The position numbers were made by a program, and so were the translations under genes. A stretch of DNA of 34,208 nt from the NCBI GenBank assembly GCA_945873955.1, contig CAMCFA010000026.1, positions 1 to 34,208 of the forward strand. The letters run 5' to 3'. This stretch comes from an uncultured Clostridia bacterium. Its GTDB lineage: Bacteria > Bacillota > Clostridia > Oscillospirales > Ruminococcaceae. Positions within the stretch are counted from its first letter, which is position 1, and every line of letters starts with the position of its first letter. This document shows, piece by piece, positions 1-34,208 of the stretch. The notes beneath the pieces were generated by a model. That model was not told where the DNA came from, did no database searches, and saw nothing but the letters and a program-made list of their open reading frames with translations.

Positions 1-41
1 GGAAGCCAAAAGGAAGCGAAAAGCAATTTTGCTGCGCAAAG
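1..41 (-). repeat. Partial copy of dispersed hairpin repeat (left edge)
   Basis: Read on the minus strand, bases 35 down to 1 match 33898-33932 on the plus strand at 33 of 35 positions, including the first arm of the 12-bp hairpin found there. The window ends in the hairpin loop, so only the leading part of this copy is visible. Like the right-hand copy, it lies just downstream of a gene (the aminotransferase) and points in that gene's direction of transcription. It is probably one member of a genome-wide repeat family (inference). Confidence 0.7.
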
Positions 42-80
42 AGGAAAAGAGAATCTGCCCTATAAATTACAATTTACCAA

Positions 81-33132: not shown

Positions 33133-33864
33133 ATGGTACAGAGTTTAGTTTTAGCGGCGGGCAGCGCTCAAAAGGCGGATCTGTTCAGCATTAATTATAT
33201 GACGGCGTATTTCCTGTGCATTGCGGCGTTCATTTTTGCGGCGATATGTTCTGTCAAGGTAAAGACCACGTTCAACAAGTATAACCGCGTCAGAAGCCTT
33301 GGAGCAGTCACCGCAGCGGAGGCGGCGCGCCGTATACTGGACAGCAACGGCTTGTACAATGTACAGATAGCGCGTATTTCCGGCAGCCTTACCGACAATT
33401 ACAACCCCCGCACGAATGTCGTTTCCCTGTCGGACAGCGTGTACGACAGCACGTCGCTGGCGGCGATAGGCGTTGCGGCGCATGAGTGCGGTCACGCGGT
33501 CCAGCACGCGAAGGGGTATATCCCGATCAAGATACGTTCGGCGGTGTTCCCGCTGGCGCAGTTTGGTTCGTCGTTTTACTTCATAATTTTTCTGTTGGGA
33601 ATATTGTTCAGCTTTGAACCGCTGGTGGACGCGGGTATAATTCTGTTTGCGTTCGTGGTAGTATTCCAGCTTGTGACTCTGCCTGTTGAATTCAACGCCA
33701 GCCGCCGTGCAATGCAGACTATTGAGGCTCAAGGGCTTTTGCAGCGGGACGAGCTTTACGGCGCGAGGAGAACTCTCACCGCTGCGGCAATGACTTATGT
33801 CGCGAGCCTTACGGTGTCGTTTACGCAGCTTTTGAGACTGTTGTCGTACAGGAACAGAAGATAA
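33133..33864 (+). CDS. Membrane zinc metallopeptidase (YugP family)
   Basis: An integral membrane peptidase of 243 residues in the YugP/neutral zinc metallopeptidase type 2 family. It has an N-terminal helix (about 20-42), the zinc motif AAHECGHAVQ with His117, Glu118 and His121, two helices at about 140-185, and a short final hydrophobic stretch. SD AGGAGG lies 7 nt before the ATG. Its place between fmt and the probable rsmB matches the order seen in many Clostridia. Its substrate is unknown; a role in membrane protein quality control is only a guess. Confidence 0.9.
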   Translation: MVQSLVLAAGSAQKADLFSINYMTAYFLCIAAFIFAAICSVKVKTTFNKYNRVRSLGAVTAAEAARRILDSNGLYNVQIARISGSLTDNYNPRTNVVSLSDSVYDSTSLAAIGVAAHECGHAVQHAKGYIPIKIRSAVFPLAQFGSSFYFIIFLLGILFSFEPLVDAGIILFAFVVVFQLVTLPVEFNASRRAMQTIEAQGLLQRDELYGARRTLTAAAMTYVASLTVSFTQLLRLLSYRNRR

Positions 33865-33897
33865 TTTTTAATTTGTCGGGTGTCTTTTTCTTTATGA

Positions 33898-34104
33898 GCA
33901 GCAAAATTGTTTTTCGCTTCCTTTTGGCATCCAAAAGGAAGCGGGGTGTGGGGCAGAGCCCCACACTCGGCGCGAATGCGCCGCTACTCGCGCGATAGCG
34001 CGCAACTTGGCGCGAAGCGCCATAAACGCGTTCAAAAGCGCTAAAGGGGTTCGGGGGAAAACAAGAGTTTTCCCCCGGTCAATGACTGCGGAGCAGTCAT
34101 TGAC
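33898..34104 (+). repeat. Array of seven short-loop perfect hairpins (dispersed repeat)
   Basis: The stems, in order with lengths and loops, are: 33916-33942 (12 bp, CAT), 33946-33966 (9 bp, AGA), 33968-33983 (6 bp, GAAT), 33989-34002 (5 bp, GATA), 34008-34022 (6 bp, GAA), 34052-34077 (11 bp, AAGA) and 34078-34104 (12 bp, GGA). Six of the seven stems close on a C-G pair; the first closes on G-C. The lead-in 33898-33932 recurs inverted at the left window edge. It fills the gap between the Zn peptidase and the next gene; no real gene is visible in it and no U-run follows a stem. Confidence 0.85.
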
Positions 34105-34153
34105 ATACTCCCCTCTAAAAATCAATATATATCACAAAAAGGAGCGAGAAAGT

Positions 34154-34208
34154 ATGCCCTCCCCCCGCCTTACAGTAGTAAAAATGCTGCTGAAAATGGA
34201 CAGCAGCG
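34154..34208 (+). CDS. rsmB: Start of probable 16S rRNA m5C methyltransferase RsmB (truncated by window end)
   Basis: The frame opens at ATG 34154 with SD AAGGAG 9 nt upstream and runs to the window end, encoding MPSPRLTVVKMLLKMDSS. The pattern PR-xxx-K-xLLK-(D/E) resembles the NusB-like opening of RsmB/Sun. In Firmicutes the gene after fmt or the Zn peptidase is usually rsmB, which supports the call. Only 18 codons are visible, so the identity rests mainly on context. Confidence 0.5.
   Translation, partial: MPSPRLTVVKMLLKMDSS

Follow-up and report, generated by a model that had tools for sequence, protein, structure and literature searches.

A hairpin array beside a zinc peptidase gene as the probable body of a non-autonomous transposable element in Clostridia

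The array of short hairpins found between a putative zinc metallopeptidase gene and rsmB in the window (the entire stretch of 34,208 nucleotides that was analysed) is very probably the body of a MITE, a non-autonomous transposon that here measures about 270 bp and has an interior built of modular hairpins. This reading follows from many dispersed copies, terminal inverted repeats, TA at most of the element ends, empty orthologous loci, near-identical copies at unrelated loci, pairing that is kept and cassettes that vary.

The array and the element that holds it

All seven back-to-back perfect hairpins described in the initial annotation were recovered at 33915-34104, each with a stem free of mismatches (Table 1). 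As stated there, the closing pair is C-G in six of the seven (the exception, H1, closes on G-C), while the longest stem has 13 bp and not 12. The array also lacks a U-run, as had been claimed: the two sites that a terminator scan of 33800-34208 yielded are minus-strand sites lying past the array on its downstream side. An imperfect stretch, ACGCGTTCAAAAGCGCTAAAGGGG, absent from that earlier list, separates H5 from H7, and GCGCTAAAGGG within it is among the best-conserved parts in the between-species comparison. The RNA fold computed for 33880-34130 reaches -128.9 kcal/mol versus -76.5 ± 4.75 for 200 dinucleotide shuffles (z -11.0; none of the 200 as good). Rfam gave no match in the window at gathering cut-offs, and at a permissive threshold the best match of the element had E 0.011 and 23.7 bits as against a 45-bit cut-off.

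Table 1. Coordinates of the element, its parts and the adjoining genes in the window
Feature	Position	Strand	Remarks
Whole element	33862..34129	+	Transposase-less, TA ends, ~268 bp; limits from comparison with intact copies
Decayed 5' terminal inverted repeat TAATTTTTAATTTGTCGGG	33862..33880	+	2 mismatches to consensus TAAATTGTAATTTGT; holds the TAA stop of the zinc peptidase
H1	33915-33943	+	13 bp stem, loop CAT, closes on G-C
H2	33946-33966	+	9 bp stem, loop AGA
H3	33968-33983	+	6 bp stem, loop GAAT
H4	33989-34002	+	5 bp stem, loop GATA
H5	34008-34022	+	6 bp stem, loop GAA
H3+H4+H5 cassettes	33968..34022	+	Other copies: one to three cassettes, order differing
Conserved core AAAGCGCTAAAGGGG	34035..34049	+	
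H7	34052-34077	+	11 bp stem, loop AAGA; outer pairs covary
H8	34078-34104	+	12 bp stem, loop GGA; compensatory variants among other copies
Decayed 3' terminal inverted repeat CTCCCCTCTAAAAATCAATATA	34108..34129	+	Intact copies read CTCCCCTATAAATTACAATTTA
Putative neutral zinc metallopeptidase gene, upstream	33133..33864	+	PF04298, profile 2-216 of 218
Start of downstream gene, taken as rsmB	34154..34208	+	From locus order and reading of the G021 homologue; gene cut by contig end
Second, truncated copy of the element, left end of the window	1..76	-	Terminal repeat 62-76, on into part of H1

A 251-base query returned 73 matching rows in the window's own genome, partly due to palindromes matching themselves, and all 39 further stretches that were fetched from this genome and read match the element. 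The location of 25 of these 39 copies at contig ends is expected of a repeat that breaks short-read assemblies (the left end of the window's own contig is a truncated copy), and the copy number is uncertain, since a single copy may be split over two contigs. Common to the copies is an outer inverted repeat, TAAATTGTAATTTGT on the left and its complement on the right. At up to 2 mismatches it has 68 forward and 62 reverse matches in the genome (130), versus 3 + 3 (6) for the reversed control. Paired terminal repeats enclose 9 array copies of 254-275 bp each, and they also bound four elements of 370 bp that have a different body. Judging by these comparisons, the array forms the interior of a larger element at about 33862-34129, whose terminal inverted repeats (consensus TAAATTGTAATTTGT) are decayed; the limits given in the initial annotation were too narrow, as the repeated unit includes these ends. 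The element shares with MITEs its short length (254-275 bp), the absence of a transposase gene and the terminal inverted repeats, present on the 9 array copies and on the four 370-bp elements.

The same ends were seen on other bodies. A second non-coding family of 370 bp, with an unrelated body and several copies at unrelated loci, is represented by L066-L069 and L080 (G000 contigs C40, C45, C48, C33 and C102). Shorter elements with these ends (L044, L045 and L070) measure 148 bp, with H1 and little else of the array, and ~85 bp, being nearly one large palindrome. A variant terminal repeat, TAAATCGGAATTTGG, has 9 matches at up to 1 mismatch, in 5 of 7 genomes.

Pairing kept while stems change

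What is conserved in the hairpins is structure rather than sequence. A scan of the window and 27 of the 39 own-genome stretches counted 1 internal mismatch among the 1165 pairs of 128 hairpins, and in 78 elements of relatives it counted 13 among the 3094 pairs of 283 hairpins. These figures understate mismatches, because a stem is recognised only if its pairing resumes beyond the mismatch, and a hairpin that overlaps a longer one is discarded. The same scan missed three mismatched H8 forms that were found in the H8 alignment. This alignment comprised 11 distinct own-genome forms, leaving out bulged ones (e.g. L013, L025, L030 and L032) and the unrelated H8 of L042. Paired cells make up 98.5% of it, a value that falls to at most 51.5% when the pairing is slid by 1-3 columns, and both sides have changed in 4 of the 12 pairs. 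Doubly changed cells number 15 versus 5.7 in shuffles and covariation is 0.321 versus 0.144 (0 of 500 shuffles as high for either), although the count of pairs with a double change and the number of further pair types are no higher than in shuffles (298 and 474 of 500 as high, respectively); as the copies are related, the shuffles are no formal test. For H7 (2 of 113 cores skipped), 33 distinct strings were compared: Watson-Crick pairing is seen in 32 of them at outer pair 10, in 31 at pair 11 and in 23 at pair 12, the shuffled means being 22.7, 15.1 and 9.1 and the shuffled maxima 30, 22 and 17, respectively. Pairs 13 and 14 do not surpass the shuffles. Compensatory changes, which the initial annotation had proposed to seek, are therefore present in H8 and in the outer pairs of H7. 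The middle cassettes, in turn, vary between copies in number and order (Table 1).

One could ask whether such near-perfect palindromes are a product of selection at all. They might arise by a mutational process, such as template switching or hairpin inversion between arms, and travel as neutral cargo, a reading compatible with mobility. The rarity of internal mismatches (a single one in the 1165 own-genome pairs, apart from the three H8 forms missed by the scan) agrees with this, as does the occurrence on one H8 stem of two loops, GGA (4 rows) and TCC (2 rows), which a flipped hairpin would give. On the other hand, GCGCTAAAGGG and the AAGA loop are conserved between species even though they have nothing to gain from arm correction, and we regard the mutational origin as possible though doubtful.

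Insertion sites and neighbouring genes

Two array copies (L016 and L018) are 99% identical and lie in unrelated loci. In the window, the genes preceding the zinc peptidase on the same strand match PriA, peptide deformylase and methionyl-tRNA formyltransferase domains. The fmt/Zn-peptidase/rsmB locus has the same gene order in two relatives, G021 and G012, and holds no array there: the gap between the aligned peptidase and rsmB blocks is 55 and 28 bases, respectively, versus ~280 and 296 in the window. In a third relative, G004 (L204), the blocks are 153 bases apart, and the stop-codon position taken by the window element is occupied by a different insert of ~150 bp that has a palindrome of its own.

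The joined flanks of 15 elements were searched against 43 genomes of the genus, and junction-spanning matches were obtained for at least 3 of the 15 joined sites, those of L014, L010 and the 370-bp element L069. The L014 empty site is matched in G004 (87% identity) and G021 (74%), that of L010 in G021 (77%) and G004 (70%), and that of L069 in G012 (77%), with weaker matches in G012, G054 and G057 among the matches listed. The cleanest is the L014 site in G004; the L014 site in G021 is short by ~28 bases, and the L010 site carries ~20 extra bases in G021 and ~50 in G004. TA is found at most element ends and also at element-free sites, which is consistent with TA duplication, if not proof of it to the base, given that divergence from the relatives is 13-34% in the matches that span a junction, several of which show extra or missing bases there.

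Of 16 elements examined (32 ends), 7 have an open frame of at least 60 codons whose stop is precisely the TAA in the terminal repeat, and at 5 further ends a frame of this length enters in some other way. The window copy is inserted at the TA inside the peptidase stop codon. The peptidase homologues in G021, G012 and G004 end at the same codon, so that the stop in the window is the natural end of the gene. Because the sequence after the TA starts with A, a TAA or TAG stop that is entered at its TA is rebuilt as TAA and the protein stays unchanged, which would explain the place of the element in a series of housekeeping genes. Insertion into stop codons would thus be a way for a TA-targeting element to enter such a series without protein change. 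As to the mechanism, a transposase acting in trans would recognise the AT-rich terminal repeats and paste the element at TA.

The suggestion of a mobile palindromic array made in the initial annotation is supported by these data, since the array is multicopy, is missing from the same loci in relatives and shows compensatory changes; an array unique in its genome and free of such changes had been named there as a refuting outcome, and the result was the opposite. Mobility stood, whereas the terminal inverted repeats and the insertion at TA had been overlooked.

The orientation of copies was counted on plain longest-ORF gene calls, leaving out copies within 1,200 bases of a locus end (46 copies of relatives kept) and taking the ORF calls around 6 of these 46 copies as frames of the array itself. 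The upstream gene is co-directional in 8 of 13 own copies and 23 of 46 copies of relatives, and divergent genes flank 9 of 59. The orientation to neighbouring genes is about random, and since there is also no terminator-like site in the array, the main role of a directional terminator was set aside.

The same counts bear on the proposal of an RNA element, namely a 3' stabiliser, attenuator or processing site selected for its effect on the expression of its neighbours, which would again be compatible with mobility. The strong RNA fold, the conserved core and loop and the place of the window copy within a co-directional gene series speak for it. The stem mismatches add a further argument: in 201 distinct hairpins, read on the strand as written, G-T occurs 13 times, A-C 5 times and other mismatches 8 times, and the ratio of G-T to A-C becomes 12 to 1 once 1 and 4 cases, respectively, are set aside by eye and not blind (loop-shifting or pairing across two hairpins). 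This tilt would fit selection as RNA, the counts being small, related and partly hand-judged, but the own-genome H8 mismatches lean the opposite way (C-A 2, T-G 1 of 11 forms). The orientation of the upstream gene (8 to 5 and 23 to 23), the copies between divergent genes, the want of a terminator-like site and the two relatives that have the same gene order and no element at the locus also argue against such a role, which makes it improbable. With orientation about random, the mRNA stabiliser, transcription roadblock and RNA scaffold named in the initial annotation are no more than candidate roles.

For the transposon reading, we suppose that the hairpins would be retained because nucleic-acid structure matters to the element itself, and not as a service to neighbouring genes. 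The structure could act as hairpins extruded from DNA or formed by its single strand, or else as stems in read-through RNA that resist nucleases. Overall, structure-dependent mobility or persistence is more likely than service to adjacent genes as the benefit of the hairpins.

Mobilising enzymes, known repeat systems and distribution

No autonomous transposon with matching ends was found in the own genome via either of two transposase families, DDE_3 and DDE_Tnp_1. The IS630-type family (DDE_3) had no match there, while the same search was positive in 3 of 14 control genomes, and a mobiliser of this type was rejected. The IS4/IS5-type family (DDE_Tnp_1) had 5 matches. With up to 3 mismatches allowed, the terminal repeat was absent from all five loci as fetched; at 4 mismatches, three of the loci gave five repeat matches, which were unconvincing, and two of the genes run off a contig end. 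Recurrent ORFs in or beside arrays, in the best 40 of the ranking, proved to be frames of the array itself.

The initial annotation had termed the array REP-like, and a REP/BIME/REPIN-type array would depend for its movement on a REP-associated tyrosine (Y1) transposase, with single-strand hairpins as the substrate. Indeed, the array is palindromic, dispersed and mostly intergenic, inverted array pairs occur in G012 and other genomes, and the window's genome has a Y1_Tnp gene (L194, G000:C58; IS200-type) that a stop codon interrupts and that has neither array nor terminal repeat close to it. Against this, Y1_Tnp matches are sparse, in 9 of the 43 genus genomes and in only 2 of the 8 with at least 20 exact core matches (G000, with the broken gene, and G056), and the 10 Y1 loci that were fetched, from 16 match rows, all lack the array core and the terminal repeat. 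The copies of the window species bear terminal repeats instead, and TA ends. The term REP-like, taken strictly, is therefore not supported, and we consider a Y1-driven array very unlikely.

Among known systems, the mitochondrial double-hairpin and GC-cluster elements are mobile short palindromic units, organellar and with one or two hairpins; they share mobility and palindromy with the present element. According to PMC3049150, BOX of Streptococcus pneumoniae is dispersed, with terminal inverted repeats and a modular plan of a variable count of internal cassettes predicted to fold. Our element resembles it in all these respects, in a comparison that covered the modular plan. In contrast to BOX, with its boxA/B/C modules, each cassette here is a short perfect hairpin with a stem of its own, a conserved core is present, and no IS with matching ends was found. 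RUP (S. pneumoniae) and Correia/NEMIS (Neisseria) are described in PMC2229807 as small mobile elements with inverted-repeat ends, terminal TA and base-paired bodies (RUP ~107 bp, with a matching IS630; Correia 107 or 155 bp). The window element has ends of this kind and a base-paired body, but it consists of an array of separate hairpins, in a genome that has no IS630-type (DDE_3) transposase. Like the high-copy REP/BIME/REPIN palindromes, which at times form inverted pairs and have stem subfamilies with complementary changes (PMC3733652), it has many palindromic copies, some inverted pairs and complementary stem changes; unlike them, it has no linked Y1 transposase, a unit of 254-275 bp and terminal inverted repeats with TA. 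In our best reading, drawn from analogy, the element may work like BOX or RUP of the pneumococcus, and membership of either family is not claimed. No paper on this element was found among those listed from the open-access literature searched, as judged by titles and the starts of abstracts, and the main text of a 2024 MITE review (PMC10969869) has no word starting with 'clostridi'.

Related hairpin arrays are present in about half of the sampled species of the genus. The core pattern (GCGCTAAAGGG plus the CAAGAG-loop hairpin), searched exactly and thus missing diverged copies, was present in 21 of the 43 genus genomes and in 3 of 394 genomes sampled from the order, these being the three of this genus sampled (0 of 391 in other genera). 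It was found in none of 39 genomes from other genera of the same family and had no match in viral contigs. A looser DNA search of 41 genomes gave 17 positives, none outside the genus. The named carriers are uncultured Clostridia and Oscillospiraceae assemblies, several titled with gut or animal names. One contig, G021:C68 (L048), has a flank 100% identical to the window species, a copy elsewhere in G021 being 85% identical, and is probably misbinned; G021 is still counted among the 21.

The outer parts differ between species. The window species has TAAATTGTAATTT terminal repeats. G012 (CAMELR) has compound elements of ~650 bp, in which two arrays of opposite orientation lie together between related terminal repeats of the AAACTATAATTTA type (clear at both ends in 2 of the 4 read); its terminal repeat TAAACTATAATTTA has 75 matches versus 27 for a control, with no transposase-sized pair noticed among them. 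In JAGASH (G045) the similarity among four copies is confined to the array (about -131 to +83 relative to the core), and no terminal repeat is visible, which implies that the array can exist, and may move, outside this shell. With low confidence, we suggest a wider reading in which the array would be a structure-coded selfish module, consisting of the core (GCGCTAAAGGG plus the CAAGAG-loop hairpin) and interchangeable perfect hairpins, read by a factor that recognises shape and not stem sequence, carried by different transposon shells across the genus and, in the window species, inserted without harm at stop codons.

This element, in which no coding capacity was found, provides a natural example of base pairing that persists inside a genome and from one genome to another although the stems have been exchanged for other sequences. 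It may serve as a tractable model for asking whether bacterial palindromic repeats are selected as DNA shape or as RNA, or are products of arm-to-arm correction.

Two further observations concern the surroundings of arrays and repeats. A gene between terminal-repeat-like ends, TAAATTGTAATTT and AAATTCCGATTTA, in L078:332-790 was ruled out as a transposase, since it matches the WapI-like immunity protein family; its position is possibly a coincidence, or the gene may have been captured. In L086, L089 and L140 (CANQKW), arrays lie amid further short repeats such as ACAGTGCACAGTGAATAGTGAACAGTAAG.
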